The notes under the pieces are model-generated. The model saw nothing but the letters and a program-made list of their open reading frames with translations. It did no database searches and was not told the DNA's origin. 64,000 nucleotides of DNA from Agromyces mediolanus (GTDB lineage Bacteria; Actinomycetota; Actinomycetes; Actinomycetales; Microbacteriaceae): NCBI RefSeq assembly GCF_023715325.1, contig NZ_JAMBNX010000002.1, positions 248,001 to 312,000 on the forward strand, given 5' to 3'. Positions 1 to 64,000 of this stretch are shown one piece after another. Within the stretch, counting starts at the first letter, position 1; every line of letters starts with the position of its first letter. The position numbers were made by a program, and so were the translations under genes.

Positions 1-264
1 CGAGGCGCGGATGCCGCGATCCTCCGGGCGCGGGCGCTTCGCGATGCGGCGCCGCGTTCGCCGCTGGCGACGGCGATCCGGGAGTACGCGGCGGAGCGGT
101 TCCCCGCTCCACCCGGGACCATCGGCACCGACGGGGGCGGGGCGACCGGGCCCCGGTCGGGCGCCGCCCGGACGGGACGCCCGGCGCCCGAGTCCTCGGG
201 TTCCGGCATCCGTGGAACGCGTCTCCTCGATCGCGTGCGACGCCGCCCGCCGCACTACGCTTGA
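1..264 (+). CDS. C-terminal end of an unidentified protein (5' truncated)
   Basis: Frame +1 is open from the first base to a TGA at 262-264 and uses GC-rich third positions typical of coding DNA here, so this is probably the last 87 codons of a gene that starts outside the window. The first third looks like an alpha-helical domain (residues such as AAILRARALRDAA and AIREYAAERF); the rest is a Gly/Pro/Arg-rich tail. I do not recognise the family. The stop lies 3 nt before the pdtaS start, yet pdtaS has its own -10 box inside the last codons of this gene. Confidence 0.4.
   Translation, partial: RGADAAILRARALRDAAPRSPLATAIREYAAERFPAPPGTIGTDGGGATGPRSGAARTGRPAPESSGSGIRGTRLLDRVRRRPPHYA
256..261 (+). 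promoter_or_regulatory. -10 box TACGCT for leaderless pdtaS
   Basis: TACGCT matches TANNNT and is followed by exactly 6 nt and the GTG start at 268, the spacing expected if the transcript begins at the start codon. There is no Shine-Dalgarno sequence, which fits leaderless translation. Confidence 0.5.
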
Positions 265-267
265 GCT

Positions 268-1761
268 GTGTCGACCCTCAGTGAACTCGTCCTCGCCCAG
301 GGCCGCAGCAGTCAGGCCGACGTCGACTGGCTGCACATGCTCGTCGGCGACCTGCAGCTGCTCGCCGATCTCGCCTTCGCGGACATCGTGCTGTGGGTGC
401 CGTCCGGCGACGACGACTTCGTCGCGGTCGCGCACTCGCGTCCGTCGAGCGCCGCGACGCTCTTCTACCGCGACTTCGTCGGTCAGCGCATCAAGCCGCA
501 GTGGCGGGAGCTCGTCACGCAGGCGTACTCGGGCGCGCAGATCGTCGATTCCTCCGCTCCCGACTGGTACGAGGAGATGCCGACCAGGGTTCGCGCCGTC
601 CCCGTCATGCGACGGCTCGCCGAGGCGAGCACCGCCGTGGCCCCCGAGCCGGTCGCCGTGATCACCCGCCACACGAACCTGGGCGCGACCCGGACCCCGA
701 GCCGGCAGGAGCTGACGTTCAACGACTGCGCCGGCGAGCTGTTCCAGATGATCGCCTCCGGTGACTTCCCCGATCTGGGGGCGCCGACCGGGCCGCGCCG
801 CGGTGCGCCCCGCGCCTCCGACGGGCTCATCCGGCTCGACGTCGACGGCATCACCACCTTCGCGAGCCCGAACGCCCTCTCGGCGTTCAACCGCATGGGC
901 TTCGACGACGAGCTGGAGGGCGAGTCGCTCGCCGACGTCACCACCCGCCTGCTCGCCGGCAAGCTGGTCGTCGACGAGTCGCTGCCGCTCGTCGTGACCG
1001 GCCGCGCCCCCTGGCGAACCGACGTGGAGTCCCGGGGGGTCACCGTCTCCCTGCGAGCCATCCCGATCCGCCGCACGGGCGAGCGCATCGGCGCGATCGT
1101 GCTCACGCGCGACGTCACCGAACTCCGCCACCAGGAGCAGGAGCTCATCACGAAGGACGCGACCATCCGGGAGATCCACCACCGGGTGAAGAACAACCTG
1201 CAGACGGTGGCGTCGCTGCTGCGCATCCAGGCGCGGCGCACCCACTCCGACGAGGCGCGCGAGGCGCTCACGCAGGCGATGCGCCGGGTCGGCGCGATCG
1301 CGGTCGTGCACGACACACTGTCGACCGGTCTCTCGCAGAACGTCGACTTCGACGAGGTCTTCGACCGGGCGCTGCTGCTCGTCGCCGAGGTCGCCGCGGC
1401 GCACAACACGACGGCGCACCCGAAGCGTTCGGGGAGTTTCGGCGTCCTGCCGAGCGAGTACGCGACCCCCCTCGCGCTGGCACTGACCGAGCTCGTCACC
1501 AACGCGGTCGAGCACGGGCTCGCGGGCCGCGTCGGCGAGGTCGAGGTGGTGGCCGACCGATCCGACCAGGTGCTGACCGTGCAGGTCCGTGACACCGGTT
1601 CGGGGCTGCCGGAGGGGCGGGTCGGCGAGGGGCTCGGCACGCAGATCGTGCGCACCCTCATCCAGGGCGAGCTCGGCGGGACGATCGACTGGCACACCGT
1701 CGTCGGAACCGGCACCGAGGTGACCATCGAGGTGCCGATGCGCTGGATCGCCCCGGCCTGA
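268..1761 (+). CDS. pdtaS: Sensor histidine kinase PdtaS
   Basis: A 497-residue cytosolic kinase with no membrane segment. The order is an N-terminal GAF-like domain (about 1-165), a PAS domain (about 185-285), a HisKA_2 dimerisation domain and a HATPase domain. The H-box reads IREIHHRVKNNLQ with His304/His305. The N-box (TELVTNAVEHG) and glycine boxes (DTGSGLPEG, GLGTQIVRTL) are intact. This is the architecture of mycobacterial PdtaS, which phosphorylates the ANTAR RNA-binding regulator PdtaR; no pdtaR lies in this window, which is usual for this orphan kinase. The GTG at 268 is supported by the leaderless -10 box; an earlier start would overlap the upstream gene. Confidence 0.88.
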   Translation: MSTLSELVLAQGRSSQADVDWLHMLVGDLQLLADLAFADIVLWVPSGDDDFVAVAHSRPSSAATLFYRDFVGQRIKPQWRELVTQAYSGAQIVDSSAPDWYEEMPTRVRAVPVMRRLAEASTAVAPEPVAVITRHTNLGATRTPSRQELTFNDCAGELFQMIASGDFPDLGAPTGPRRGAPRASDGLIRLDVDGITTFASPNALSAFNRMGFDDELEGESLADVTTRLLAGKLVVDESLPLVVTGRAPWRTDVESRGVTVSLRAIPIRRTGERIGAIVLTRDVTELRHQEQELITKDATIREIHHRVKNNLQTVASLLRIQARRTHSDEAREALTQAMRRVGAIAVVHDTLSTGLSQNVDFDEVFDRALLLVAEVAAAHNTTAHPKRSGSFGVLPSEYATPLALALTELVTNAVEHGLAGRVGEVEVVADRSDQVLTVQVRDTGSGLPEGRVGEGLGTQIVRTLIQGELGGTIDWHTVVGTGTEVTIEVPMRWIAPA

Positions 1762-1823
1762 GCGGGCGCGCGGGCGGTCGGCGCACTCCGGGCCGGTCGG
1801 GGGACTCGCGCCTCGGGGCGGCC

Positions 1824-1829
1824 TACCAT
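1824..1829 (+). promoter_or_regulatory. -10 box TACCAT deciding the bcp start
   Basis: TACCAT is followed by 7 nt and then the ATG at 1837. The ATG at 1828 lies inside the box itself, so 1837 is the better, leaderless start of bcp. Confidence 0.45.
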
Positions 1830-1836
1830 GGTCGGT

Positions 1837-2313
1837 ATGAACGATGCACGACTCGCCCCCGGCGATCTCGCCCCCGACTTCACGCTCGACGACCAGGACG
1901 GCACTCCCGTGACGCTCTCGTCGCTCCGCGGCGGCAAGGTGGTGCTCTACTTCTATCCCGAGGCGATGACCCCGGGCTGCACCACCGAGGCGTGCGACTT
2001 CCGTGACAGCCTCAACTCGTTCAAGGCCGCGGGCATCCGTGTGCTCGGCGTCTCCAAGGACGAGGTCGAGAAGCTGAAGCGCTTCGCCGAGCGCGACCGA
2101 CTGAACTTCACCCTGCTCGCCGACCCGGATCTCGCGGTCCAGCAGGCCTACGGCGTCTGGGGCGAGAAGTCGCTCTACGGCAAGATCGTCGTCGGCTCGA
2201 TCCGTTCCACCTTCGTGGTCGACGAGGACGGCCGCATCGCGAAGGCCTTCTACAACGTGAAGGCCACCGGGCACGTCGCCCGGATCCGCCGCGAGCTCGG
2301 CCTCGACGGCTGA
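1837..2313 (+). CDS. bcp: Thiol peroxidase, Bcp/PrxQ type
   Basis: A 158-residue one-domain peroxiredoxin that reduces hydroperoxides with thioredoxin-type donors. Its core has YFYPEAMTPGCTTEACDF: the peroxidatic Cys48 and, five residues on, resolving Cys53, the PrxQ arrangement for an intramolecular disulfide. Length is normal for the family. The start is the second ATG, placed 7 nt after a -10 box; the ATG three codons earlier is possible but sits in the promoter. It stands alone between pdtaS and a convergent membrane gene, and its role fits the sigR/whiB1 redox block nearby. Confidence 0.9.
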   Translation: MNDARLAPGDLAPDFTLDDQDGTPVTLSSLRGGKVVLYFYPEAMTPGCTTEACDFRDSLNSFKAAGIRVLGVSKDEVEKLKRFAERDRLNFTLLADPDLAVQQAYGVWGEKSLYGKIVVGSIRSTFVVDEDGRIAKAFYNVKATGHVARIRRELGLDG

Positions 2314-2325
2314 CCCATCGCCGCA

Positions 2326-2341: not shown

Positions 2342-2349
2342 CCGGGCGC

Positions 2350-3030: not shown

Positions 3031-3037
3031 CATCTCC

Positions 3038-4423: not shown

Positions 4424-5781
4424 CGCAGCAGCCCGCCCCAGAGCTCGGGGAACTGCGGCAGCGTCTTGCCCGTCGAGGCGATGTCGTCGATGATGACGCC
4501 CGGCACGGCGAGGCCGACGATGGCGCCCGTCGTCGCCATGCGGTGATCGGCGTAGGCGCGCCATCCGCCCTCGTGCAGCGGTGCCGGCTCGATGCGGAGC
4601 CCGTCGTCGAGTTCGGTGACGCGGCCGCCGAGGCCGTTCAGCTCCGCCGCGAGCGCAGCGAGCCGGTCGGTCTCGTGATGGCGGATGTGACCGATGCCGG
4701 TGAACGTCGAGGGGCCGTCGGCGAACGCCGCGATCGCGACGAGGTTCGGTACCAGCTCGCCCGCCTCGCCTAGATCGAGGTCGACGGCGCGGATGCCGCC
4801 GGCGGCCGCGCCGACGGCCCGGACGGTGAGGCGGTCGCCGGTGCGCTCGACCTCGGCGCCGAAGCGCGGCAGCAGGGTCTCGAGCTGCGCGCCGACCTGC
4901 GTGGTGGTCTCCGGCCATCCTGAGACCGTCACCTCGCCGCCGGCGACGAGCGCGGCCGCGAGGAACGGCGCGGCGTTCGAGAGATCCGGTTCGATCTCGA
5001 CGTCGGTGGCGGCGATGGCGCCGGGCGCGACGATCCAGCGGCCGGGCTCCGGCGACTCGACGACGACGCCCCGGCGCGCGAGCGCCGCGACCGTCATCTC
5101 GATGTGCGGCATGCTCGGCAGCCGCTCGCCGGTGTGCCGGAGGTCGAGGCCCTGCTCGAAACGCGGGGCGGACAGCAGCAGTCCGGAGACGAACTGGCTC
5201 GAGGCCGAGGCGTCGATCTCCAGCACGCCCCCGGCGATGCGGCCCGTGCCGTGCACGGTGAACGGGAGGGCGCCGCGGCGGTCGTCGTCGAGGTCGACGC
5301 CGAGGCCCTTGAGGCCGTCGATGACGCCGGACATCGGCCGCCGCCTGGCGGCCTCGTCGCCGTCGAAGGTGGTCGGGCCGAGCGCCAGTGCGGCCACGGG
5401 CGGCACGAAGCGCATGACCGTGCCGGCGAGGCCGCAGTCGACCGTCGTCGATCCGAGGAGCTCCTCGGCGGGCGTCACCCGCAGGTCGTCGCCGAATCCG
5501 CCGCGGCCGGGCAGACGCTCGAAACCGACGCCGAGGGCGGAGAGCGCCTCGACCATGAGCTCGCTGTCGCGGGACCAGAGGGGCGCGCGCAGCACGGACG
5601 GCCCGTCGGCGAGGGCGGCGAGCACGAGCTCCCGGTTCGTCAGCGACTTCGAGCCCGGCACGGACACGGTCGCGTGCAGCGGCCGGCTCGCGGTGGGCGC
5701 GAGCCAGCCCGGGTCGGGCTCGGTCCGGCGGGCGTCGCCGTACGGGTCGAACTCGGGCTCGGAATATGGCGTGATCTGCAT
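4420..5781 (-). CDS. aroA: 5-enolpyruvylshikimate-3-phosphate synthase
   Basis: A 453-residue enzyme of the shikimate pathway (shikimate-3-phosphate plus PEP to EPSP). It contains the substrate-binding [16 protein letters not shown] segment near residue 40, [12 protein letters not shown] near 130 and, near the C-terminus, [19 protein letters not shown] 35-residue N-terminal extension precedes the first motif. It begins at an ATG with a TACTGT -10 box 9 nt upstream and no ribosome binding site. The start codon overlaps the SigR-type promoter of the divergent sigR gene. It is the first gene of the aroA-rsgA operon. Confidence 0.92.
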
Positions 5782-5892: not shown

Positions 5893-6516
5893 ATGACCGG
5901 TGATGAGATCGACGAGCCCAAGGTCGAGGCCGAGCGCCCGCTGGGCGAGCTGTTCGAGGAGCAGGCGCTGCCCTTCATCGATCAGCTGTACGCCGCCGCG
6001 CTGCGGATGACCAAGAACCCCGCCGACGCGCAAGACCTCGTGCAGGAGACCTTCGTGAAGGCCTACGCCGCCTTCGCCCAGTTCAAGCAGGGCACGAACC
6101 TCAAGGCCTGGCTGTACCGCATCCTCACGAACACCTTCATCAACACGTACCGCAAGAAGCAGCGGGAGCCGTACCAGGGCACGATCGACGAGCTCGAGGA
6201 CTGGCAGCTCGGCGGCGCCGAGTCGACGACGGCCGCGACGAGCCGCTCCGCCGAGGCGGAGGCGATCGACCACCTGCCCGACAGCGCAGTGAAAGACGCC
6301 CTGCAGGCACTCCCGGAGGACTTCCGTCTGGCGGTCTACTTCGCCGACGTCGAGGGTTTCTCCTACCAGGAGATCGCCGACATGATGAACACCCCGATCG
6401 GGACCGTGATGAGCCGCCTGCACCGTGGCCGGCGGATGCTTCGCGAGTCCCTCGCCGACTACGCCCTCGAGCAGGGCATCCGGTCGGCGGCCAACCCCAC
6501 CAGGAGCAAGAAATGA
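5893..6516 (+). CDS. sigR: ECF sigma factor SigR/SigH (thiol-oxidative stress)
   Basis: A 207-residue group IV sigma factor. Region 2 contains [21 protein letters not shown] and [15 protein letters not shown]; region 4 contains [30 protein letters not shown]. Both are typical of SigR (Streptomyces) and SigH (Mycobacterium), which direct thioredoxin, mycothiol and protease genes on disulfide stress. The ATG at 5893 has AGGA 9 nt upstream; a longer form from 5830 is possible. Its stop overlaps the rshA start (ATGA), giving the usual sigma/anti-sigma operon. Confidence 0.93.
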
Positions 6517-6841: not shown

Positions 6842-9034
6842 ATGAACGATGCACACCTTCGACCCGCCCGTTCCGGAGTGCCGCGCTGGCTCCGCGTGCT
6901 GCTCCCCGCCGTCCTGATCCTGCTCTGGACGGCGGCGTTCGGCATCGGCGGGGCCTCGTTCGGCGCCATCTCCGAGGTGCAGACGAACGACCAGACCCAG
7001 TTCCTCCCCGCGAGCGCCGAGGCCACCGAGGTCCACGCGCTCGAGGAGGGGTTCCGCACCGGCGACGAGGTCCCCGCGATCGTCGTCTACGCGAGCGAGG
7101 ACGGCGCGAAGCTCGACCCTGCGGCGCTCGCTGAGATCGACGACGTCCGCGGGCTCGTGGCCGGCGTGCAGGGCGCGGGGGAGACCTCGCCGGTCATCCC
7201 CTCGGAGGACGGCGCCGCGGCCCAGTTCGTCGTCCCGGTCGACTCCGCAGCGGATGGCGGCGTCGACGAAGTGGTCGGCGAGGTGCGGGACCTCGTCGCC
7301 GAGCATCCCGTCGACGGCGCCACGAGCGCCGTGACCGGGCCGGCGGGGTTCACCGCCGACCTCGTCGCCGCCTTCGCCGGCATCGACGGCCTGCTGCTCG
7401 CCGTCGCGCTCGCCGCGGTGTTCATCATCCTGGTCGTCGTCTACCGCTCGCTCCTGCTGCCGTTCATCGTGCTCTTCACGAGCCTCTCGGCGCTCTGCGC
7501 CTCGGTGTTCGTCGTCGTCGCGCTCGCGCGCAGCGGAGCGATCCTGCTGAGCGGTCAGACGCAGGGCATCCTGTTCATCCTCGTCATCGGGGCGGCGACC
7601 GACTACGCCCTGCTGTACACGGCGCGCTACCGGGAGGCCCTCGAAGCGTCGCCGGGCAAGTGGGCGGCGACGCTGACCGCGCTCCGCCGCGCCTGGGAGC
7701 CGATCGTCGCCTCGGGCGGCACGGTGATCGCCGGGCTCCTGATCCTGCTGTTCAGCGAGCTCAACTCAAACAAGGCCCTCGGGCCGGTCGCGGCCATCGG
7801 CATCGTCGCGGCGATCCTCGCCGCGCTCACCCTGTTGCCGGCACTCCTCCTCTGGGCCGGTCGCACGGCATTCTGGCCGCGGAGGCTCCACCGACCGGAT
7901 GCCTCGAGCATCGGTGGGGCGGCGGAGCCCGAGCTGCCCGCCACCGGGCTCTGGGCGAAGCTGGCGGGGCTCGTGGGCCGCCGCCCCCGCCTCGTCTGGG
8001 TGCTCTCCGTGCTGCTGCTCGCCGGCCTCTCGCTCGGGCTCGCGAGGCTCGACGCCGACGGGGTGCCCTCGAGCGAGTTCGTGCTCGGGCAGTCCGAGGC
8101 CCGCGACGGGCAGGAGCTCCTCGCCGAGCACTTCCCGGGCGGCTCCGGCGCGCCCGCCGCGATCGTCGGCCCGGAGGACGAGCTGCAGGCGATGGCCGAC
8201 ACCGCGCTCGCGACGGACGGCGTGGCGAGTGTCGCCGTCGTCTCGGCGGACTCCCCGTCGGGCACCGCGCCGGTGACGGCCGACGGCATCGGCGCGTTCG
8301 GCCCGCCCGGAACGCCGGCGCCGGAGCCCACGGTCGTCGACGGCCGGGTGCTGCTGCAGGCGACCCTCGACGACGCGCCCGACTCGGCGGCCGCCGAGCA
8401 CACCGTCCGGGCGCTGCGCGACGCGCTCGACGCGGTGTCGGCCGACGCGCTCGTCGGCGGCCCCACGGCCGTCGCCCTCGACACGAACGACGCCGCGATC
8501 GCCGACCGGACGCTGATCATCCCGCTCGTGCTCGCCGCGATCCTCCTGATCCTGATGCTGCTGCTGCGCGCCATCGTGGCGCCACTGCTGCTCATCGCGA
8601 GCGTCGTGCTGTCCTACACGGCGGCCCTCGGTGTCTCGGCCTGGGTGTTCGAGGGGATCTTCCGCTTCCCCGGGGCCGACCCGAGCGTGCCGCTGTTCGG
8701 CTTCGTGTTCCTCGTGGCGCTCGGGGTGGACTACAACATCTTCCTGATGACCCGCGTGCGCGAGGAGTCCCTGCGCTTCGGGGCGCGCGAGGGCGTGCTG
8801 CGGGGGCTCCGCCTGACCGGCGGGGTGATCACCTCGGCGGGGCTCGTGCTCGCGGCGACGTTCGCGGCGCTCGGGGTGCTGCCGATCCTCTTCCTCGCGC
8901 AGATCTCCTTCATCGTGGCGTTCGGGGTGCTGCTCGACACCTTCCTCGTGCGGACGCTGCTCGTGCCGGCGCTCGCCTACGATCTCGGCCGGTCGATCTG
9001 GTGGCCGTCGAAGCTCGCCCGCGGGCGGCGCTGA
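6842..9034 (+). CDS. MMPL-family membrane transporter
   Basis: A 730-residue RND-superfamily protein with two repeated halves, each with an extracytoplasmic loop after the first helix and a bundle of about five helices. The two proton-relay Asp-Tyr pairs are visible as GAATDYALLYTARYRE in the first half and GVDYNIFLMTRVREE in the second, the MMPL signature. Members export lipids or small molecules; the substrate here is unknown. A TAACGT box ends 10 nt before the ATG, so the leader is only a few nt. A large hairpin terminator follows the gene. It is not in an operon. Confidence 0.87.
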   Translation: MNDAHLRPARSGVPRWLRVLLPAVLILLWTAAFGIGGASFGAISEVQTNDQTQFLPASAEATEVHALEEGFRTGDEVPAIVVYASEDGAKLDPAALAEIDDVRGLVAGVQGAGETSPVIPSEDGAAAQFVVPVDSAADGGVDEVVGEVRDLVAEHPVDGATSAVTGPAGFTADLVAAFAGIDGLLLAVALAAVFIILVVVYRSLLLPFIVLFTSLSALCASVFVVVALARSGAILLSGQTQGILFILVIGAATDYALLYTARYREALEASPGKWAATLTALRRAWEPIVASGGTVIAGLLILLFSELNSNKALGPVAAIGIVAAILAALTLLPALLLWAGRTAFWPRRLHRPDASSIGGAAEPELPATGLWAKLAGLVGRRPRLVWVLSVLLLAGLSLGLARLDADGVPSSEFVLGQSEARDGQELLAEHFPGGSGAPAAIVGPEDELQAMADTALATDGVASVAVVSADSPSGTAPVTADGIGAFGPPGTPAPEPTVVDGRVLLQATLDDAPDSAAAEHTVRALRDALDAVSADALVGGPTAVALDTNDAAIADRTLIIPLVLAAILLILMLLLRAIVAPLLLIASVVLSYTAALGVSAWVFEGIFRFPGADPSVPLFGFVFLVALGVDYNIFLMTRVREESLRFGAREGVLRGLRLTGGVITSAGLVLAATFAALGVLPILFLAQISFIVAFGVLLDTFLVRTLLVPALAYDLGRSIWWPSKLARGRR

Positions 9035-9043
9035 CCGCGCACG

Positions 9044-9093
9044 CGAACGCCGAAGGGCGCGGATGCCTCGGCATCCGCGCCCTTCGGCGTTCG
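9044..9093. terminator. Perfect 24-bp hairpin between mmpL and kgd
   Basis: Two 24-nt arms (CGAACGCCGAAGGGCG... and its exact reverse complement) are separated by only two bases and sit between the stops of two convergent genes. This is the strongest hairpin in the window and a bidirectional terminator. Its tip is made of the recurring octamer CGGATGCC paired with GGCATCCG. Confidence 0.85.
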
Positions 9094-9102: not shown

Positions 9103-12918
<3,816 letters not shown>

Positions 12919-14639: not shown

Positions 14640-15957
14640 GTGGATTCTGCTCGGAATCGGGGTGCTTCTCACGATCGGCACGGGCTTGTTCGTTGCGAGC
14701 GAGTTCGCGCTCGTCAACCTCGATCGCGCCGACCTCGAGGCGCGTCGCGCCAGGGGCGAGACCCGCTTGGGTCTCACGATCCAGGCGCTGAAGATCACCT
14801 CCACCCACCTCTCGAGTGCGCAGCTCGGCATCACGCTGACGACGCTGCTCACGGGCTACACGATGGAGCCGGCGATCTCCTCGCTGCTCGCGGGGCCGCT
14901 CACCGCGATCGGCCTGCCCGAGGAGCTCGTGCGGCCGGTCGGGGCGACCACCGCGGTCGTCATCGCCACCCTGCTGTCGATGCTCGTCGGCGAGCTCGTG
15001 CCGAAGAACTTCGCGCTCGCGCTCCCGCTCGCCACGGCGAAGGTCGTCATCCCGTTCCAGACCGCGTTCACCTGGGTGTTCCGCCCGGCGATCGCGGTGC
15101 TGAACGGCAGCGCGAACGCGGTCATCCGCTCCTTCGGCATCGAGCCCAAGGAAGAGCTGTCCGGTGCGCGTTCGGCCGAGGAGCTGAGCTCGCTCGTGCG
15201 CCGCTCGGCGAGCGCCGGGCTGCTCGAGCAGGACACGGCGACGCTGCTCGGCCGCACGCTGCGCTTCTCCGGGCACGATGCCTCCGACGTGATGACCCCC
15301 CGCCCGCGGCTCGCGGCGGTGCAACGGCTCGAACCGGCGGAGGCCGTCATCGAGCTCGCGCGCCAGACCGGCTACTCGCGCTTCCCCGTCTACGACGAGA
15401 ACCTCGACGACATCGTCGGCGTCGTGCACGTGAAGCAGGCCGTCGCGGTGCCGCGCGAGCGCCGCGGCGAGGTGCCGACCTCGGCGCTGCAGTCCGACGC
15501 GCTCCGAGTGCCGGAGACGATGAAGCTCGACTCGCTCCTCGGCGAGCTGCGCGCCCGCGGCTTCCAGATGGCGGTGATCGTCGACGAGTACGGCGGCACC
15601 GCCGGCGTCGCGACGCTCGAGGACCTCGTGGAGGAGCTGGTCGGCGAGGTCGCCGACGAGCACGACCGCACACGCGCGGGCATCGTCCGCCGCGGCGACG
15701 AGATCAGCTTCCCCGGCATCCTCCGGCCCGACGAGCTCGAGGAGCGCACCGGCATCCGCGTGCCCGAGAACGGCGACTACGAGACGGTCGCCGGGTTCAT
15801 CACCGCGGCGCTCGGGCGGCTGCCCGTCGTCGGCGACACCGTCGAGATCGACGAGGGGCGGCTCGAGGTGCGCCGCCTCGACGGCCGCCGCGTCGACCGG
15901 GTGAGGTTCATCCCCACCCCGCTCCCGACGGCTGACGAGGAAGGGGACGAGCGATGA
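14632..15957 (+). CDS. CNNM/CorC-type membrane protein (hemolysin family)
   Basis: A 441-residue protein with a DUF21 transmembrane domain (about 1-190, four hydrophobic stretches; VASEFALVNLDRADLEARRARG and VGELVPKNFALA are typical), a CBS pair (about 205-335; VMTPRPRLAAV, YSRFPVYDENLDDIVG) and a C-terminal CorC_HlyC domain (about 355-430). Homologues such as MpfA and human CNNM export Mg2+ or affect divalent-cation balance. GTG 14632 has GGGAGG with a 5-nt spacer. The stop overlaps the next start (ATGA), forming a two-gene operon behind the proline-rich leader ORF. Confidence 0.87.
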   Translation: MSEWILLGIGVLLTIGTGLFVASEFALVNLDRADLEARRARGETRLGLTIQALKITSTHLSSAQLGITLTTLLTGYTMEPAISSLLAGPLTAIGLPEELVRPVGATTAVVIATLLSMLVGELVPKNFALALPLATAKVVIPFQTAFTWVFRPAIAVLNGSANAVIRSFGIEPKEELSGARSAEELSSLVRRSASAGLLEQDTATLLGRTLRFSGHDASDVMTPRPRLAAVQRLEPAEAVIELARQTGYSRFPVYDENLDDIVGVVHVKQAVAVPRERRGEVPTSALQSDALRVPETMKLDSLLGELRARGFQMAVIVDEYGGTAGVATLEDLVEELVGEVADEHDRTRAGIVRRGDEISFPGILRPDELEERTGIRVPENGDYETVAGFITAALGRLPVVGDTVEIDEGRLEVRRLDGRRVDRVRFIPTPLPTADEEGDER

Positions 15958-17028: not shown

Positions 17029-17100
17029 TCGTCGCCTCGGACGCCGGGCGGATGCCGGCAGGCGTAAACTCGTCTCGACCCGAGGAATCGAGATTCACTC

Positions 17101-23709: not shown

Positions 23710-23750
23710 GCGGATGCCGCGAACGCACGACGGCGGATGACGGCATCCGC
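23710..23750. terminator. Hairpin after the thiamine-binding-like gene
   Basis: GCGGATGCCG (23710-23719) and CGGCATCCGC (23741-23750) form a perfect 10-bp stem with a 21-nt loop, 3 nt past the stop codon. The arms are the recurring octamer in inverted orientation. Confidence 0.55.
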
Positions 23751-29687: not shown

Positions 29688-29719
29688 CGGATGCCGCAGG
29701 CGTCGGCCTGCGGCATCCG
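29688..29719. terminator. Terminator of metY
   Basis: CGGATGCCGCAGGC, loop GTCG, GCCTGCGGCATCCG: a perfect 14-bp stem 20 nt past the metY stop on the minus strand. The base of the stem is the recurring octamer pair. Confidence 0.7.
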
Positions 29720-32341: not shown

Positions 32342-32363
32342 CGCCCCATTCTCCCAGCACGGG

Positions 32364-32370
32364 CAGAATA
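32364..32370. promoter_or_regulatory. Overlapping divergent -10 boxes of acyltransferase and SDR genes
   Basis: CAGAAT (32364-32369, plus strand) is 6 nt before the SDR ATG; TATTCT (complement of 32365-32370) lies upstream of the acyltransferase gene on the minus strand. Five positions are shared, so both polymerases would contact the same DNA. Confidence 0.5.
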
Positions 32371-32375
32371 GGCGC

Positions 32376-43330: not shown

Positions 43331-43376
43331 GCCGAGGCATCCGGGCCGTTCCGTGTCGCTCGCCGTCCCTGCCTTC

Positions 43377-44815: not shown

Positions 44816-44848
44816 CGGATGCCCCGGGCGGTTCGCCCGGGGCATCCG
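44816..44848. terminator. Terminator of pspA
   Basis: CGGATGCCCCGGGCG, loop GTT, CGCCCGGGGCATCCG: a perfect 15-bp stem 17 nt past the pspA stop on the minus strand. The outer part of both arms is the recurring octamer. Confidence 0.75.
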
Positions 44849-45626: not shown

Positions 45627-45647
45627 GCGGATGCCGTCGGCATCCGC
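45627..45647. terminator. Hairpin between the TPM gene and pspA
   Basis: GCGGATGCC, loop GTC, GGCATCCGC: a 9-bp perfect stem made only of the recurring octamer and its complement. It would lower read-through from the TPM gene into pspA. Confidence 0.55.
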
Positions 45648-47830: not shown

Positions 47831-48637
47831 TCAGCGGACGGTCAGCTCCACGGCCTCCGAGACGAGCGGGACGCCGAGCGCGGCACCGGGGGCGGCGAGC
47901 GCCACTGCGGCGCTCAGCCGGTACTCGCCGGGGGCCAGCGCCGGGAGGGCGCCGGGATCGGCGAGCGAGGCGTCGTCGTCGCAGCGCACGGCCCGCAGGG
48001 TGGCGGCGAGCTCAACCGAGGCACCGGGATCGAGCTCCAGCGGGGTCCGGACGGCTTCGAGCCCGCTCGTGTGCCACCGTGTCACCTCGTCGGCGATCGT
48101 CAGGGCTGGGCCGGCGAACAGCTCGCCGCGGTAGCGCGTCTCACCCGTGTTGGTGAGGACCACGGTCGCCTGCGCGCTGCCGCCGGCGTCGAGCCGGCCG
48201 ACCGAGGCGATCGAGATCGTGAGGCCGTCGGCGCCGGGCGCGGTCGCCCCGACCGGGGGCGCGCCGCAGGCGTTCAGGCGGTCGACCGGTCGCAGCACGA
48301 GCTCCTCCTCCGGCGGCTCGTCGGCGGGGGCGACTCCGGTCGAGGGAAGCGACTGCCCCTCGGTCTCGGCATCCGTATCGGCCGACGAGCTCACCGGCGC
48401 GTCGGCCGTGGTCGACCCGGCGTTCAGCCCGAGACCGCCGGTCAGTGCGATCCCGCCGATGGCGAGCACCGCGACCGCGGCGGCGGTCCCGCCGACGAGG
48501 GTCGTGCGCCGTCGCCGGCGTTCCCGGCGACTGCGGGCGAGCACCTCGTCGAGGTCGAGCCGGGCGCCCCCGGCGTTCGAGGCATCCGCTCGCAGCGCCC
48601 GCCGCAGCTCATCGGGGTCAGGAGGTGGGGTGGGCAT
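47831..48637 (-). CDS. Probable membrane-bound anti-sigma factor
   Basis: A 268-residue protein with an N-terminal cytosolic part (LDEVLARSRRERRRRR), one helix (about 46-66) and an extracytoplasmic domain with a Ser/Asp-rich spacer and a beta-rich end (SAQATVVLTNTGETRYRGELF). Two Cys (DRLNACG and AVRCDDD) could form a disulfide. The start lies 20 bp inside the end of the ECF sigma gene, the standard place of a cognate anti-sigma factor. There is no ZAS motif. Confidence 0.65.
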   Translation of the reverse strand: MPTPPPDPDELRRALRADASNAGGARLDLDEVLARSRRERRRRRTTLVGGTAAAVAVLAIGGIALTGGLGLNAGSTTADAPVSSSADTDAETEGQSLPSTGVAPADEPPEEELVLRPVDRLNACGAPPVGATAPGADGLTISIASVGRLDAGGSAQATVVLTNTGETRYRGELFAGPALTIADEVTRWHTSGLEAVRTPLELDPGASVELAATLRAVRCDDDASLADPGALPALAPGEYRLSAAVALAAPGAALGVPLVSEAVELTVR

Positions 48638-54022: not shown

Positions 54023-55456
54023 GTGGCAGGACACGCAGCAGACCGCGGCACCCTCGAGGTGCCCACCGACCCCAACGCGCTCGCCGAGGGCGTGTGGCCC
54101 GCGAGCGCGACGCGCGACGCCGAGGGCCGGCTCGTCGTCGGCGGCGTCGACGCCGCGACGCTGGCGTCCCGCTTCGGCACGCCGCTGTACGTGCTCGACG
54201 AGGGCGAGGTGCGGGCCAGGGCCATCCGCACCCGCGAGGCCTTCGAGGCCGCGGCGCGCCGAATCGGCACCGAGACGACGGTGTACTACGCGGGCAAGGC
54301 CTTCCTCTCCACGGCGATCGTCCGCTGGGTGACCGAGTCCGGTCTCGCGGTCGACGTCTGCTCGGGAGGCGAGCTCGCCGTCGCTCTCGCCGCCGGGGCC
54401 GACCCCGCGCGGCTCGGCTTCCACGGCAACAACAAGTCGGAGACGGAGATCGCCGCCGCGGTCGAGGCGGGCGTGGGCGCCCTCATCATCGACAGCGAGA
54501 TCGAGATCGAGCGGGTCGCCCGGGCGGCGGCCGCAGCCGGGCGCGTGCAGCGCGTCCGGCTCCGGGTGAACAGCGGCGTGCACGCCTCGACGCACGAGTT
54601 CCTCGCCACCGCCCACGAGGACCAGAAGTTCGGCGTCACGCTCGGCCGTGCGGTCGAGCTCGGCGAGCGCATCCGCTCGCACCCCTCGCTCGAGTTCCTG
54701 GGCCTGCACTGCCACATCGGCTCGCAGATCTTCGACGCGGCCGGCTTCGCCGAGTCGGCGGCGCGGCTCCTCGCCGAGCACGCCGCGCTCCTCGCCACGG
54801 GCCCCGTGCCCGAGCTGAACCTCGGCGGCGGCTTCGGCATCGCCTACACCGCGGCCGACGATCCGGCGCCCATCGAGCGCATCGCCGACGGCATCGCCGA
54901 CGCGGTGGCCGAGGGCTGCCGCGCCCTCGGCATCCCCGTTCCGAAGCTCGCCTTCGAGCCCGGCCGCACCATCGTGGGTCCCGCCGGCATCACCCTCTAC
55001 CGGGTCGGCACGGTGAAGCCCGTGCCGACCGAGGAGGGCTGGCGGCACTACGTCTCGGTCGACGGCGGCATGAGCGACAACGCGCGCTTCGCGCTCTACG
55101 GGGCCGACTACTCGGCCCGGCTCGCCTCGCGCAGCTCGGCGGAGCCCGCCGCGCTCGTCCGCATCGCGGGCAAGCACTGCGAGGCCGGCGACATCGTGGT
55201 CGACCGCGAGTACCTGCCGCACGACGTCGGGCCGGGCGATCTCGTCGCCGTCGCCGCGACCGGAGCGTACTGCTGGTCGCTCTCGAGCAACTACAACCAC
55301 GTGCCCCGCCCGGCGGTCGTCGCCGTCGACGGGGGCGCCGCGCGCGTCATCGTCCGCGGCGAGACCATCGCCGATCTCCTCGCCCGCGACGTCGGGCACG
55401 AGGCATCCGGAACCACGGACGCCGTCTCCACCCCAGCCGAAGGGACCTCAGAATGA
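54023..55456 (+). CDS. lysA: Diaminopimelate decarboxylase
   Basis: A 477-residue fold-III PLP enzyme, last step of lysine synthesis. Lys92 in YYAGKAFLS binds PLP; LGLHCHIGSQI, ELNLGGGFGIAY and EPGRTIVGPAG are the phosphate- and substrate-binding signatures. SGGELAVALAAG and the C-terminal VSVDGGMSDNARFALYGADY agree with LysA. GAGG lies 7 nt before GTG 54023. First gene of the lysA-hom-thrC-thrB operon; stop overlaps the hom start (ATGA). Confidence 0.94.
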   Translation: MAGHAADRGTLEVPTDPNALAEGVWPASATRDAEGRLVVGGVDAATLASRFGTPLYVLDEGEVRARAIRTREAFEAAARRIGTETTVYYAGKAFLSTAIVRWVTESGLAVDVCSGGELAVALAAGADPARLGFHGNNKSETEIAAAVEAGVGALIIDSEIEIERVARAAAAAGRVQRVRLRVNSGVHASTHEFLATAHEDQKFGVTLGRAVELGERIRSHPSLEFLGLHCHIGSQIFDAAGFAESAARLLAEHAALLATGPVPELNLGGGFGIAYTAADDPAPIERIADGIADAVAEGCRALGIPVPKLAFEPGRTIVGPAGITLYRVGTVKPVPTEEGWRHYVSVDGGMSDNARFALYGADYSARLASRSSAEPAALVRIAGKHCEAGDIVVDREYLPHDVGPGDLVAVAATGAYCWSLSSNYNHVPRPAVVAVDGGAARVIVRGETIADLLARDVGHEASGTTDAVSTPAEGTSE

Positions 55457-56763: not shown

Positions 56764-57857
56764 ACCAGCCCACCCCCAAGCCGGGTTCGCGCCAGTGGCG
56801 CGGCGTCATCCGCGAGTACGCCTCGAGGCTCGACGTCACCGACGCCACCCCCATCGTCTCCCTCGGCGAGGGGGGCACACCGCTGATCCCCGCGCCCGCG
56901 CTCGGCCGCCGAACGGGCGCCGACGTCTGGGTGAAGTTCGAGGGCATGAACCCGACCGGCTCGTTCAAGGACCGCGGCATGACCATGGCCGTCACGAAGG
57001 CGGTCGAGCGCGGCGCCGAGGTCGTGATCTGCGCCTCGACGGGCAACACGTCCGCCTCGGCGGCCGCCTATGCGGCGCACGCCGGCATCACCGCGGCGGT
57101 GCTCGTGCCCGAGGGCAAGGTCGCGATGGGCAAGCTCAGCCAGGCCGTCGCGCACGGCGCGCGCATCATCCAGCTGCAGGGCACCTTCGACGACTGCCTC
57201 GACATCGCCCGCGAGCTCGCCGACGTGCACCCCGTGCACCTCGTGAACTCGGTGAACAACGACCGCATCGAGGGGCAGAAGACGGCGGCGTTCGAGGTCG
57301 TCGAGGTGCTCGGCGACGCGCCCGACTTCCACTTCGTGCCGGTCGGCAACGCCGGCAACTACACGGCGTACACGCGCGGCTACCGCGAGGACATCCAGGC
57401 GGGCAACGCCACTCGGATGCCTCGGATGTTCGGCTTCCAGGCCGCCGGCTCGGCGCCTATCGTCCGCGGTGAGCCGGTGCGCGACCCCGAGACGATCGCG
57501 AGCGCCATCCGCATCGGCAATCCCGCCTCGTGGGAGCTCGCGCTCGCGGCACGGGACGAGACCGACGGCTACTTCGGCGCGATCGCCGACGAGCGCATCC
57601 TCGAGGCCCAGCGCATCCTCTCCGCCGAGGTCGGCATCTTCGTCGAGCCGGCGTCCGCGATCTCCGTCGCGGGCCTGCTCGAGCGTGCGGAGGCCGGGCA
57701 GGTCCCGGCCGGCTCGCGCGTCGTGCTCACCGTCACCGGCCACGGTCTGAAGGACCCGCAGTGGGCGGTCCGGCGTGCCGACGGCACGGAGGAGCAGCCG
57801 GTCGTCGTCCCGGTCGACACGGCCCAGGTCGCCTCGCTGCTGGAGCTCGGCGCGTGA
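56760..57857 (+). CDS. thrC: Threonine synthase
   Basis: A 365-residue fold-II PLP enzyme, the short actinobacterial type. Lys70 in [11 protein letters not shown] binds [19 protein letters not shown] and [16 protein letters not shown] bind the phosphates. It converts O-phosphohomoserine to threonine. GTG start overlaps the hom stop, and the stop overlaps the thrB start (GTGA). Confidence 0.94.
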
Positions 57858-59076: not shown

Positions 59077-61209
59077 GTGACCAACGGAACCGACCGCGTC
59101 CAGAACGCGGCCAGCACCGCAGAACTCAAGAGCCTCAAGGTGGCCGAGCTCGTCGAGCTCGCCGGCTCCCTCGGCATCGCCGGCGCTTCGAAGCGCCGCA
59201 AGGGCGAGCTGATCGAGCTGATCGAGGCGCAGCAGGCAGCCGGCAGCGTCGAGCTCGACGTCCCGGCGGAGGCCGCTGCGGCCGTCGTCGAGGCCCCGGC
59301 CGAGCCGGCGCCCGCCGCCGAGCCCGAGGCCCCCGCGACGGAGGCCCCCGCGACGGAGGCCCCCGCGACGGAGGCCCCCGCCGAGGCACCGGTCCAGGCC
59401 GATGTGCCGGTCGAGGCATCCGCTCCGGCCGAAGCGCCCGCCGAGGCATCCGCCCCGACCGAGGCCCCCGCCCGTCGCGGCCGCCAGTCGCGTCGCGTGA
59501 CGAGCAGCGGCACCGCCGCCGTGCAGCACGTGAACGGCGGCGGAGCCGGCGTGCCGCTCGTCCCCGGCGACGACGAGGCGGCCCGCGAGGCCGCCCGCGC
59601 CGCGGTGCGCGAGGAGCTCGCGGCGGCCACCGGCGAAGCGGGCCAGCGCCCGGCCGCCGAGGCCGAGCAGGGCGAGACGCCCGAGCCCCGTCAGGGGCGC
59701 CGCCGCGGCCGCCGTGGCGGTGAGCGCAACGGCGACGACAAGCAGCAGAACGGCCGCGGTGAGTCGCAGCCCGAGGGTGAGAAGTCGCAGGGCGGTCGCA
59801 ACGGCGACGCCCGCAACGCCGAGCGCAAGAACGACAAGAACGACAAGCACGACGGCGACAAGCCCGCCGACGGCGACAAGGGCGGCGAGAAGCAGGCCCG
59901 CGAAAAGTCGGGCCAGCAGAACCAGCAGGGCGGCCAGCAGAACCAGCAGCAGGACGGCGAGGGCGGCCGTCGCAGCCGGTACCGCGACCGCAAGCGCCGC
60001 GGTCAGGGCGGGGGCGGCGACGAGGTCGAGCCCGAGATCCTCGACGACGACGTGCTGATCCCGGTCGCCGGCATCCTCGATGTCCTCGACAACTACGCCT
60101 TCGTGCGCACGACCGGCTACCTGCCCGGCCCGAGCGACGTCTACGTCTCGCTCGGCCAGGTGAAGAAGTACCACCTGCGCAAGGGCGACGCCGTGGTCGG
60201 CGCCATCAAGCAGCCCCGCGACGGCGAGGGCAACAGCCGCCAGAAGTACAACGCGCTGGTGAAGGTCGACTCCATCAACGGCCAGACGACCGATGAGGCC
60301 GCGGCGCGCGTCGACTTCCAGAAGCTCACGCCGCTCTACCCGCAGGACCGCCTGCGCCTCGAGACCGAGCCGACGAAGCTCACCCAGCGCATCATCGACC
60401 TCGTCGCCCCGATCGGCAAGGGCCAGCGCGGCCTCATCGTCGCGCCGCCGAAGGCCGGCAAGACGATCGTCCTGCAGCAGATCGCCAACGCGATCTCGCA
60501 GAACAACCCCGAGGTCCACCTCATGGTCGTGCTCGTCGACGAGCGCCCCGAAGAGGTCACCGACATGGAGCGCACGGTGAAGGGCGAGGTCATCGCCTCC
60601 ACCTTCGACCGTCCCGCCGAGGACCACACCACCGTCGCCGAGCTCGCCATCGAGCGCGCGAAGCGCCTCGTGGAGCTCGGTCACGACGTTGTCGTGCTGC
60701 TCGACTCGATCACCCGTCTCGGCCGCGCGTACAACCTCGCCGCGCCGACCTCGGGCCGCGTGCTCTCCGGCGGTGTCGACGCCTCGGCGCTGTACCCGCC
60801 GAAGCGCTTCTTCGGCGCAGCGCGCAACATCGAGAACGGCGGCTCGCTCACCATCCTCGCCACCGCGCTCGTCGAGACCGGGTCGAAGATGGACGAGGTC
60901 ATCTTCGAGGAGTTCAAGGGCACCGGCAACAGCGAGCTGCGGCTCAGCCGTCAGCTCGCCGACAAGCGGATCTTCCCGGCCGTCGACGTGAACGCGTCGT
61001 CCACCCGTCGCGAGGAGATGCTGCTGAGCCCCGACGAGGTGAAGATCACCTGGAAGCTCCGTCGTGCGCTCGCCGGCCTCGAGCCGCAGCAGGCGCTCGA
61101 GGCGGTCCTCGGCCGGCTGAAGGAGACCCAGTCGAACACCGAGTTCCTGCTCCTCATGCAGAAGTCGGCGCCGGTCGGCGGGCACTCGAACGAGTCCGAC
61201 CACCGCTGA
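59077..61209 (+). CDS. rho: Transcription termination factor Rho
   Basis: A 710-residue hexameric helicase. Residues about 17-52 are the Rho N-terminal domain ([20 protein letters not shown]), then an actinobacterial insertion of about 270 residues: Ala/Pro/Glu repeats (three ATEAP units), an Arg/Gly part and a Gln/Asn/Lys/Asp-rich part. The OB-fold starts near [20 protein letters not shown]. Walker A is PKAGKT (458-463), then [11 protein letters not shown] and [19 protein letters not shown] lies 10 nt before GTG 59077. The insertion is known in related species to bind structured RNA and alter termination. Confidence 0.95.
59335..59379 (+). repeat. Three perfect 15-bp tandem repeats in rho
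   Basis: The unit GCGACGGAGGCCCCC is repeated three times and encodes ATEAP each time. Slippage would change the insertion length in steps of five residues without breaking the frame. Confidence 0.85.
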
Positions 61210-61216
61210 TCCGCCG

Positions 61217-62293: not shown

Positions 62294-62401
62294 GCGCGGC
62301 TGCGCGGGCGCTGCGCGCTGACGGCCCGAGAACACCGGCTGCCTGGCGGCTGACGGCGAGCTGACGGCCCTCACCACCTCCGGTGACTCCCCGAGGCATC
62401 C

Positions 62402-62842
62402 GCGCCAGTTCGTGCTCGTTGCGCCACTTGGAGTGGCGCGTGGCCGTCGAAGTGGCGCGGATGCCTCGGCCCTCCGCCCTGCGGTGCGCGGGAGGGGTGC
62501 GGGCGCGCCACGTACGCGGCTGGGGGTCCGTTCGCCGCACCGGTGATGGCGGTGTGCGCCAGTTCGTGCTCGTTGCGCCACTTGGAGTGGCGCGTGGCGG
62601 TCGAAGTGGCGCGGATGCCTCGGCCCTCCGCCCTGGGCTGTGCGGGAGGGGCGCGGGCGCGCCACGTACGCGGCTGGGGGTCCGTTCGCCGCACCGGTGA
62701 TGGCGGTGTGCGCCAGTTCGTGCTCGTTGCGCCACTTGGAGTGGCGCGTGGCGGTCGAAGTGGTGCGGATGCCTCGGCCCTACGCCCTGGGCTGTGCGGG
62801 AGGTGCGTGGGATGGGTGCGGGCGCTCCACGTATGCGGCCTG
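62402..62842. repeat. 154-bp tandem repeat, about 2.9 copies
   Basis: Copies start at 62402, 62556 and 62710; the third is slightly diverged, has a short insertion and is cut off near 62842. Each carries the hairpin GCGCCACT-TGG-AGTGGCGC, a further AGTGGCGC or variant, and one CGGATGCCTC octamer. The 669-bp gap 62294-62962 holds this repeat and, before it, three GCTGACGGC words (62316-62370); I see no gene in it. Open frames through the repeat are due to GC content. Confidence 0.85.
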
Positions 62843-62962
62843 AGCCCGCGGCGCCGAAGCGCTTCGGCTTCATCCCTCCTCCACATCGTCGTGCCCGGCA
62901 GCGCCGTCCACGGAAGTCGTCCGAGCGTCCGAACGGCCTCTCAAACGGCCGATGCTGGGGCG

Positions 62963-63934
62963 ATGACCAGCCATGCGCATGAATCCACGCCCCTGCCGAT
63001 CGATCGCCATCGGCTGATCCACGCGTCCGTGGTGCTGCACGCGGGGCAGCAGGCGCAACTTCTCCGGGCGGTGCGCGCCGGCGAGGTGCAGCGTGTGCGA
63101 CGGGGCGTCTACTCGCCGGTCGGCGCCGACCCGCCGCGGCGCGGAGCCGAAAGCCACCTGCTGACCGCGTTCGCCGCGGCCGCCCAGCGCGACCACCCGG
63201 TCTTCGCTGGCTACACGTCCGCGCTGCTGCACCGGATGCCGGCGGTCGGCGCGATCCCGACGCAGGTGACCCTCCTCGCGAGCGGCGCCTCCGGGCGCAT
63301 CCGCAACGGGGTCGTCGAGCTCGGTCGGCGTGCCGACACCATCATCGAGACGCGTGACGGGATCAGGCTCACCTCGCTCGCCGACGCGGTCCTCGAAGTC
63401 GGTCGCCGCTCACCGCTCGTGACCGCGCTCGCGATGGTGGATGCGGCGATCGGTCGTCGGTTCGAGGGTGACGACCGGCCGGGCTGCACACTCGACGAAC
63501 TCGTGGCGATCCTCGATCGCCGGCGCCCGTTCCGGGGGAGTCGCCGGGTCGCCGCCGTGCTCGCTCGCGCCGACCCGTTGGCGGAGAGCCCCCTCGAGTC
63601 GTTGAGCCGGCTGCGGTTCGAGGAGTACGGATTTCCTCCGCCGCTCTCGCAGCACGAGGTGCGCCTCGTCGATGGGCGAACCGCACGGCTCGACTTCGCT
63701 TGGCCGGGCATGGGGGTCTGGGGCGAGGCCGACGGCATCGGCAAGTACGGCAGCAGCGGCCGGCACTCGGCGGAAACCGTCATCGACGAGAAACGGAGAG
63801 AGGATGCGATTCGGGCGATCACCGGGTGGCGATGCGTGCGATGGGGATGGCAGGACGCGTGGCGCGGTGTTCCCCTCGCGCGTGCCCTGCTCGACGCGGG
63901 GCTTCCCACGAGCGGCCTCGCCCGGCGGCGATGA
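62963..63934 (+). CDS. AbiEi-like / DUF559-like hypothetical protein
   Basis: A 323-residue protein. The N-terminal part (LLRAVRAGEVQRVRRGVYSPVG, about 30-50) resembles the winged-helix region of AbiEi antitoxins. The C-terminal part (TARLDFAWPGMGVWGEADG ... EKRREDAIRAITGWRCVRW) resembles DUF559/Vsr-like PD-(D/E)xK folds with Asp, Glu and Lys in order. Such proteins are common in Microbacteriaceae and their function is unknown; no AbiEii-type toxin gene is visible next to it. ATG 62963 gives the best protein start; the frame runs on upstream into the repeat. Confidence 0.65.
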   Translation: MTSHAHESTPLPIDRHRLIHASVVLHAGQQAQLLRAVRAGEVQRVRRGVYSPVGADPPRRGAESHLLTAFAAAAQRDHPVFAGYTSALLHRMPAVGAIPTQVTLLASGASGRIRNGVVELGRRADTIIETRDGIRLTSLADAVLEVGRRSPLVTALAMVDAAIGRRFEGDDRPGCTLDELVAILDRRRPFRGSRRVAAVLARADPLAESPLESLSRLRFEEYGFPPPLSQHEVRLVDGRTARLDFAWPGMGVWGEADGIGKYGSSGRHSAETVIDEKRREDAIRAITGWRCVRWGWQDAWRGVPLARALLDAGLPTSGLARRR

Positions 63935-63976
63935 ATCGGTCCGGTGCGGGCAGCTCGGTGCTGCCCCGGGGCCGGG

Positions 63977-64000
63977 TCAGATCTGCCAGTGCCAATCGTG
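63977..64000 (-). CDS. Possible C-terminus of a minus-strand gene (truncated)
   Basis: On the minus strand the last 24 bases read HDWHWQI followed by TGA. The residues look like a natural protein end and the position (convergent with the preceding gene, 42 bp away) is plausible, but eight codons cannot prove a gene. Confidence 0.25.
   Translation of the reverse strand, partial: HDWHWQI

Follow-up and report, generated by a model that had tools for sequence, protein, structure and literature searches.

The stretch of DNA analysed here (the window) comprises 64 kb of contig C22 of the 4.04-Mb genome G000, and the element under study is an octamer, CGGATGCC (read as GGCATCCG on the other strand; hereafter the word), which recurs throughout it and is considered as a candidate DNA-uptake sequence. 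The best named matches to the PspA/IM30-family protein of the window are from Agromyces species, with identities of up to 90%, and on this basis the genus of G000 is taken to be Agromyces and its family Microbacteriaceae. An initial annotation had reported about 67 GGATGCC or GGCATCC words, some 45 of them extended to the octamer, on both strands and in genes as well as gaps; the counts obtained are 71 and 47, respectively, at a GC content of 72.9%, the octamers being distributed as 23 on the + and 24 on the − strand, and as 24 within called genes and 23 outside them. The enrichment is not limited to the window, as the whole genome holds 2068 copies (1047 + and 1021 −), and CGGATGCC is a short non-palindromic word that occurs on both strands in hundreds to thousands of copies. 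The word sites other than those in inverted pairs are as follows.

8..15, + strand, word CGGATGCC
205..212, − strand, word
2032..2039, − strand, word in Gly-Ile-Arg frame (may be codon-driven)
4790..4797, + strand, word in Gly-Ile-Arg frame (may be codon-driven)
6475..6482, − strand, word in Gly-Ile-Arg frame (may be codon-driven)
7896..7903, + strand, word in Pro-Asp-Ala frame
12708..12715, + strand, word, antisense, Glu-Ala-Ser frame
15751..15758, − strand, word in Gly-Ile-Arg frame (may be codon-driven)
17049..17056, + strand, intergenic word
21761..21768, − strand, intergenic word
22610..22617, − strand, word in Gly-Ile-Arg frame (may be codon-driven)
26618..26625, + strand, word, antisense, Ala-Ala-Ser frame
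26734..26741, − strand, word in Arg-Met-Pro frame
27155..27162, − strand, word in Thr-Asp-Ala frame
28514..28521, + strand, word in Gly-Ile-Arg frame (may be codon-driven)
32651..32658, − strand, word in Glu-Ala-Ser frame of the open reading frame 32214-33158 (short-chain dehydrogenase)
32977..32984, + strand, word in Ala-Asp-Ala frame of the open reading frame 32214-33158
33894..33901, + strand, word in Ala-Asp-Ala frame
36697..36704, + strand, word in Ala-Asp-Ala frame
37207..37214, + strand, word in Ala-Asp-Ala frame
38687..38694, + strand, word in Ala-Asp-Ala frame
39012..39019, − strand, word in Glu-Ala-Ser frame
40718..40725, − strand, word in Gly-Ile-Arg frame (may be codon-driven)
41316..41323, − strand, word in Glu-Ala-Ser frame
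41566..41573, + strand, word in Arg-Met-Pro frame
43336..43343, − strand, intergenic word
48368..48375, − strand, word in Thr-Asp-Ala frame
48581..48588, − strand, intergenic word
55402..55409, − strand, word in Glu-Ala-Ser frame
57414..57421, + strand, word in Arg-Met-Pro frame
59415..59422, − strand, word in Glu-Ala-Ser frame
59445..59452, − strand, word in Glu-Ala-Ser frame
62395..62402, − strand, word outside called genes
62458..62465, + strand, word in copy 1 of a 154-bp tandem repeat
62612..62619, + strand, word in copy 2 of the 154-bp tandem repeat
62766..62773, + strand, word in copy 3 of the 154-bp tandem repeat
63233..63240, + strand, word outside called genes

The Glu-Ala-Ser codons that had been noted at 32651, 39012, 41316, 55402, 59415 and 59445 are all in frame, and the Ala-Asp-Ala frame claimed at 36699 and 37210 also stands, the words themselves beginning 2-3 bases earlier (36697 and 37207). 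The gene calls were home-made and missed the open reading frame 32214-33158, so that a few copies counted as noncoding belong to missed genes; two of the 23 outside words of the window (32651 and 32977) lie in this frame, and a number of the others, close to the ends of the window, may also sit in uncalled genes. Downstream of the peptide chain release factor gene (61217-62293), the segment 62402-62863 consists of three tandem 154-bp units with one word each, the second and third units being 97% and 73% identical to the first.

The five inverted pairs, CGGATGCC..GGCATCCG, which had been described just after genes, are all present there.

9060..9077, no strand, hairpin of an inverted pair flanked by convergent genes whose ends are at 9034 and 9103
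23711..23749, no strand, hairpin of an inverted pair directly 3' of the called gene ending at 23706
29688..29719, no strand, hairpin of an inverted pair after the − strand gene ending at 29740
44816..44848, no strand, hairpin of an inverted pair after the PspA/IM30-family gene (− strand, 45600-44866)
45628..45646, no strand, hairpin of an inverted pair after the − strand gene ending at 45716

Each hairpin lies directly after a called gene and folds at −17.4 to −35.5 kcal/mol, and the pairs may play a role in terminating transcription. Larger samples, of 457 kb for G000 (the window and 393 kb more) and 400 kb for the further, word-denser Agromyces genome G009, display the same arrangement; where neighbouring words are separated by fewer than 60 bases, the + − order that gives a hairpin is the commonest (13/20 in G000, 24/51 in G009), and among close pairs (gap ≤40) it accounts for 12 of 18 in G000, 10 of these being intergenic, and for 21 of 36 in G009, 9 of these being intergenic. 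When the 90 bases 3' of the PspA/IM30 gene were compared in 16 rows (the window and 15 named Agromyces loci, L148 left out), an exact inverted pair was recorded in nine, one arm in two and none in five. The loops and flanks of these pairs vary between species after the same gene, as if the pairs had repeatedly been built anew instead of being simply inherited.

The excess of the word over chance is evident from several null models. The genes of the window hold 24 words as compared to 7.5 ± 1.9 after synonymous shuffling (maximum of 13 in 500 shuffles), and 23 words fall in the 7.1 kb outside called genes. In the 457-kb sample 266 octamers are found against 47-57 expected under Markov models of orders 1-3, orders 4 and 5 giving 111 and 171, respectively; a maximal-order model expects as many as 40 of the 47 in the window because it is fed the enriched 7-mers. 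Shuffling of synonymous codons within each gene, the codon-aware null that the initial annotation had called for, leaves the excess standing (190 words in the genes of the 457 kb against 57.7 ± 6.0), and the noncoding part of this sample holds 74 against 7.3 (order-2 Markov). The corresponding values in G009 are 388 against 60.6 ± 5.7 and 93 against 6.1, and the density outside genes is 2.3-2.9 times the coding density in the two samples. When all 8-mers were ranked by both tests (genes and noncoding), CGGATGCC took the first rank in G000, G009 and G116, the second in 43 Microbacterium loci and the third in three Cryobacterium loci.

A word produced by codon usage, amino-acid context or mutation bias would be expected to follow the codon null, and the Gly-Ile-Arg frame, some copies of which had been put down to codons alone, indeed lies near it (47 vs 37.0 in the 457 kb of G000, 48 vs 32.8 in G009). 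The excess over this null is, however, found in all six frame/orientation classes, being slight only for Gly-Ile-Arg and largest where codon use cannot explain it, as in the Glu-Ala-Ser frame (44 vs 1.7 in G000, 146 vs 3.5 in G009). Conservation of the word at orthologous sites, the other check that had been proposed, was followed in reciprocal best orthologs; 260 called genes from the 15 named Agromyces loci plus the window stretch gave 2148 pairs, and since these are ordered and related, the retention numbers are descriptive. Among 1565 aligned word sites the peptide is identical in 634, and in these comparisons the word is kept in 497 against 113.7 expected from the product of codon retention rates outside words, an expectation that is rough at edge codons. 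The gap between observed and expected retention is very large. In the Glu-Ala-Ser frame the word survives in 266 of 327 comparisons (81%) against 10.1 expected, although conserved alanines outside words retain the codon GCA in 11% of cases; the Ala-Asp-Ala type frame gives 38 of 90 against 5.5, and the Gly-Ile-Arg frame 102 of 114 against 84.4. Frame excess, noncoding density and retention together refute codon usage and mutation bias, and their chance of being the cause is negligible.

The 154-bp tandem repeat with its three copies and the occurrence of hairpins might suggest a small repeat element, such as a repetitive extragenic palindrome (REP or REPIN) or a miniature inverted-repeat transposable element (MITE), or else a terminator motif copied as a unit. 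The flank profile refutes this origin. Only a weak extension is observed (TCG in G000, GCG in G009), nothing is strongly conserved beyond about 12 bases, the copies share no unit of at least 20 bases and most of them are intragenic in both samples, so that copying as a unit is scarcely conceivable. A polar recombination or segregation signal of the Chi or KOPS (FtsK-orienting polar sequence) type would be served by a density of 0.5-1.2 per kb, and the lineage differences described below could then follow changes of the enzyme; strand skew is, however, absent from six stretches of 64-240 kb (+/−: 56/58, 59/46, 113/105, 137/132, 49/52 and 23/24), and inverted pairs are common. The strand balance largely refutes a polar site, which is rated as very improbable.

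Enrichment of the word extends to relatives of the host, so that none of the refuting conditions set by the initial annotation (codon-aware null, rest of the genome, relatives) overturned its observation. In 398 genomes of Microbacteriaceae (85 genera) the copies of CGGATGCC range from 8 to several thousand, with a maximum of 4440, and 40 Agromyces genomes hold 1195-4440 copies. With one genome per genus, 46 of the 85 show at least 5 times and 58 at least 3 times the count of a reversed-word control, and 12 less than twice, as compared to ratios of 2.37 at most (median 1.58) in 23 genomes of other families in the order. The reversed word includes TAG, which is depleted in genes, and makes a weak control; reliance is therefore placed on the synonymous shuffles, low-order Markov models and outgroup genomes. 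Around one gene in named loci, the density per kb is 1.01 in Agromyces, 0.48 in Cryobacterium, 0.46 in Microbacterium, 0.31 in Mycetocola and 0.16 in Leifsonia, and 0.14-0.16 in Arthrobacter, Pseudarthrobacter and Sinomonas. Enrichment of the word is thus not shared by every genus of the family. Among the papers listed by literature searches none reports such a word in Microbacteriaceae, and the hit in one of them is a probe sequence.

Word-poor genomes were searched for other words by the same two tests (genes and noncoding), and some word-poor relatives carry other words, that is, lineage dialects. In G094 of genus g57, GGAGGCGCGG (scored as its complement) numbers 64 in genes, where 8.5 are expected, and 35 in the noncoding part, where 0.7 are expected. 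Across the 398 genomes this word has 842-1578 copies in all nine g57 genomes sampled, reaches 2.1-6.7 times the control in seven of nine g53 genomes (688 copies at most), has 399 copies in one g77 genome and is not clearly raised elsewhere; g57 and g53 are both poor in CGGATGCC. G434 of g106 carries CGGATGCTG (22 vs 1.5 in genes, 11 vs 0.2 outside), with totals of 1071 for CGGATGCTG and 619 for CGGATGCC, and six of its seven sampled g106 sisters have mainly CGGATGCC. In g23 the two words trade off over five genomes (CGGATGCTG/CGGATGCC of 316/1864, 946/1286, 1030/1141, 1943/835 and 1562/537; rank correlation −0.9, n=5). The core CGGATG is common to two of the words, and GGAGGCGCGG (g57, g53) is quite different. 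Other top words, GGAGGCTCG in G382, GATCCGGATC in G154, CGATCCGC in G110 and CATCGGTG in G069, are weaker or different, those of G110, G154 and G069 being weak. No word stood out convincingly in G090 (60 kb) or G114 (40 kb), but samples this small miss known words, as they did in both of these genomes (in G090 its own GGAGGCGCGG).

Some further words were recorded alongside. GATCCGGATC of G154 is raised in genes and between them (11 vs 0.3 and 6 vs 0.0). CATCGGTG of G069, a family genome of 1.4 Mb whose sample has 51% GC and gene calls over only half of it, gives 23 vs 4.9 and 10 vs 1.7 and is perhaps a further dialect. CGCCGTCG is the top 8-mer in G041 and G049 (other families, 60 kb each) and in six named Arthrobacter-group loci, where it numbers 112 vs 58.6 in genes and 15 vs 1.9 outside, and is possibly a further word, in other families. 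GGATCCGC and CGGATCCG, which have a palindromic core, are strongly raised in G093 and G221 (GGATCCGC 40 vs 4.7 and 68 vs 15.8); palindromic cases were excluded from the dialect count.

A short, exact and lineage-specific word might also mark self DNA or be a target of modification (by a methylase, a restriction system or a BREX-like system), and the GGATCC-type word of G093 and G221, which we take to be a typical restriction site, is in keeping with this. Restriction sites are, however, as a rule avoided in genomes, whereas the overall excess of CGGATGCC is 4.5- to 8-fold, and the intergenic enrichment, the inverted pairs and the retention against codon preference would be left unexplained. 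The methylation or restriction site offered as an alternative by the initial annotation thus does not explain the enrichment, and is improbable.

Foreign DNA was compared to the chromosome for its content of words. Two related integrative elements hold 16 words against 11.7 expected and 12 against 12.1, respectively, as compared to 219 against 49.2 in a chromosome sample. A 40-kb segment (G000:C22:160001-200000; GC 69.1%), possibly an acquired island, holds 4 against 4.8, parts of three plasmids give observed/expected counts of 12/5.3, 11/4.9, 7/4.6 and 4/4.3, and three of four phages are at background density. A scan of viral contigs with one window protein gave no relative.

At the level of sequence, the DNA-uptake reading put forward by the initial annotation fits best, because of the balanced strands, the excess over the codon null, the 3' pairs, the retention, the dialects and the background density of the two integrative elements and the 40-kb segment; CGGATGCC is thus probably a DNA-uptake sequence of Microbacteriaceae. 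Being non-palindromic, the word would act as a self-tag that raises the chance of free DNA being bound and imported in natural transformation. Recognition would fall to a component of the cell surface, for which a minor pilin of the Tad/Flp pilus or ComEA is the likeliest candidate, and ComEC would import the strand. Imported pieces would recombine with the chromosome, so that word-bearing alleles take the place of word-free ones, and copies would accumulate by drive at many sites where the protein allows, most easily between genes. Drift of the recognition would then cause the word of a genome to be replaced site by site, giving rise to lineage dialects.

The main rival is a site that an abundant protein of the chromosome (nucleoid protein, condensin loader or termination factor) binds and that selection maintains at thousands of positions. 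Selection-like retention, the background density in two integrative elements and the pairs after genes would fit such a protein as well. It would, however, need very many individually selected intragenic sites in all six frame/orientation classes, the word-for-word trade-off among species of one genus is not easily explained by it, and the spacing of the copies is random; a chromosomal-protein site is therefore considered unlikely, though less so than the other alternatives.

Several observations weigh against an uptake sequence. Even spacing was looked for and not found, the coefficients of variation of word spacing being 1.15 and 0.97. One-letter variants occur mostly at 0.4-1.6 times expectation, which makes the word sharper than plain mutational decay predicts; those above expectation are at position 1 in G000 (about 3-fold), at position 6 to A or T (2- to 5-fold) and two others in G009 (about 2-fold). 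Leifsonia loci are without enrichment (CGGATGCC at rank 1285), and G104 and G092 (60 kb each) yielded no convincing word, although samples of this size carry little weight, the one from G090 having missed a word known from that genome. The eight g106 genomes show no anticorrelation of CGGATGCTG and CGGATGCC counts (rho 0.40) because G221 is poor in both, CGGATGCTG is several-fold over control in many CGGATGCC-rich genomes (e.g. G142 464/71, G313 514/119), and the top word of G093 and G221, CGGATCCG, is a GGATCC palindrome found mostly in genes. Microbacterium phage Efeko (L254, 17 kb) has 9 words against 1.8, unlike three other Microbacterium phages. Natural transformation has been shown for two members of the family with genomes below 2 Mb, Rhodoluna lacicola and Aurantimicrobium photophilum (PMC11577799, partial text). 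Genera with genomes as small as these (e.g. g32, g35 and g81) are near background for CGGATGCC, so that members of the family can be competent independently of it, and the one genome of this size that was sampled (G069) gave only a weak other word. This published work both helps the uptake reading, by placing competence in the family, and hurts it, as the members concerned have small genomes.

The competence machinery bears on both sides of the balance. It was searched by profiles in a panel of 66 chosen genomes (ComEC, PF03772; Tad-type ATPase, TIGR03819; PilT, TIGR01420). ComEC is matched in 66/66, which is in favour of the uptake reading, but being universal in the panel, its presence does not track the word; TIGR03819 also matches 66/66 but is over the cut-off in only 40, with a partial piece in G022, and PilT is over the cut-off in only 28, G000 not among them. 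Of the comEC and pil genes that the initial annotation proposed to look for, comEC is thus present throughout and type IVa PilT is lacking over the cut-off in G000, as it is in G009, G116, G164 and G313, several of these being among the richest in the word. A ComEC or TadA match was accordingly rejected as a predictor of the word, and a type IVa pilus as its carrier in G000. A Tad-based system is instead suggested by Micrococcus luteus, which we take to belong to the same order as the window host. Its transformation requires tad genes and comEC (PMC4322843, partial text). Among the ComEC matches, one lies in two abutting pieces (G340:C1:2981383-2982173), and those at G154:C1:343724 and G304:C8:46339 are partial, beginning at profile positions 28 and 35, respectively.

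An interrupted tadA was located as follows; in G000 and in another genus the gene is broken by related integrative elements, which carry the word at background density.

G000:C11:363854-447294, tadA-interrupting element of 82.6 kb
G119:C5:36459-122946, tadA-interrupting element of 85.6 kb
G030:C1:2212967-2226809, tadA split with 13 kb between the pieces

The best tadA of G000 is broken inside the Walker A codons (read by eye), with 83 kb between its two pieces, and a second, intact TadA-like gene (422 aa, C11:698305) is retained. The same cut is present in G119, of another genus, whose element is 93% identical to that of G000 over 38 kb; the tadA of G030 is split at about the same residue as in G000, and for G022 no more than the first piece could be located. 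The G000 element and its surroundings gave 69 called genes, and the 10 that were scanned include those for a TrwC relaxase, a coupling protein of the TraG/TrwB type and, at one end, a large serine recombinase; the element is thus of the conjugative type. G000, G030 and G022 rank second, fifth and sixth lowest in word density among the 40 Agromyces genomes; as compared to 34 genomes with a match over the cut-off, the difference has a Mann-Whitney P of 0.004 (three uncertain genomes excluded, relatedness uncorrected). The interruptions and these low ranks count in favour of the uptake reading. Insertion of elements in competence genes is known and has been interpreted as a way for the elements to prevent transformation from removing them (PMC4774983, partial text), and by analogy the elements in tadA may do the same, which fits these observations. 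At G137:C9:867934-923331 another TadA-like gene is broken, its two pieces lying about 55 kb from each other and the cut being at a different residue (~134-141).

Taken in full, the proposal is of a third natural system of DNA-uptake sequences, which would be the first from a Gram-positive phylum and the first beyond the Proteobacteria, working via a Tad/Flp pilus and ComEC, with several dialects, a replacement of CGGATGCC by CGGATGCTG mid-way within one genus, and opposition from conjugative-type elements at the tadA Walker A; this composite is favoured, with less assurance than the uptake function as such. If true, it would add a third case, in Actinomycetota and with a different pilus, in which a graded dialect change is seen within one genus and dozens of genera are word-rich (58/85). 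Comparison between the cases could then test how uptake specificity arose, how word and receptor co-evolve and how mobile elements shut down transformation. It may also prove of practical use, in that transformation of these bacteria may be easier with DNA bearing the right word.

DNA-uptake sequences have been reported only from Neisseriaceae and Pasteurellaceae, according to the available part of PMC12616744. The Neisseriaceae sequence, GCCGTCTGAA with its dialects, is received by ComP, and resembles the present word in its thousands of copies, terminator inverted pairs, genic and intergenic sites and dialects with a common core (PMC3630211, PMC6370729, both in part). The present word differs in being unrelated and of another phylum, and PilT is not over the cut-off in G000. 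Pasteurellaceae use uptake signal sequences of the AAGTGCGGT type. A ACAAGCGGT type is given in PMC3630211 (partial text). Like the present word, the uptake signal sequences are short and strongly overrepresented; the word is different, and the host is Gram-negative, with uptake measured there. Since the pilus type of the two known systems was not found and uptake is here proposed from the sequence signature, the word is not filed with either, and is set apart as a putative new variant. HIP1 of cyanobacteria is a palindrome, whereas CGGATGCC is not its own reverse complement. HIP1 (GCGATCGC) is likewise a highly iterated octamer in a clade, listed in PMC1939737 (partial text). Micrococcus luteus shares ComEC and Tad genes and has no other competence pilus, and the term 'uptake sequence' is nowhere in the available part of PMC4322843. 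Rhodoluna lacicola and Aurantimicrobium photophilum, of the same family as the window host, were transformed with linear DNA, and differ in their smaller genomes; the terms 'uptake sequence', 'uptake signal' and 'pilus' are nowhere in the available part of PMC11577799. Mobile elements are known to inactivate comYC, comK, comM and comEC, with a corresponding insertion site in several genera (PMC4774983). Unlike these, the present elements target the tadA Walker A codons and carry a relaxase and a coupling protein, 'tad' being nowhere in the available part of that source; like them, they are inserted at a corresponding site of a putative competence gene in more than one genus.

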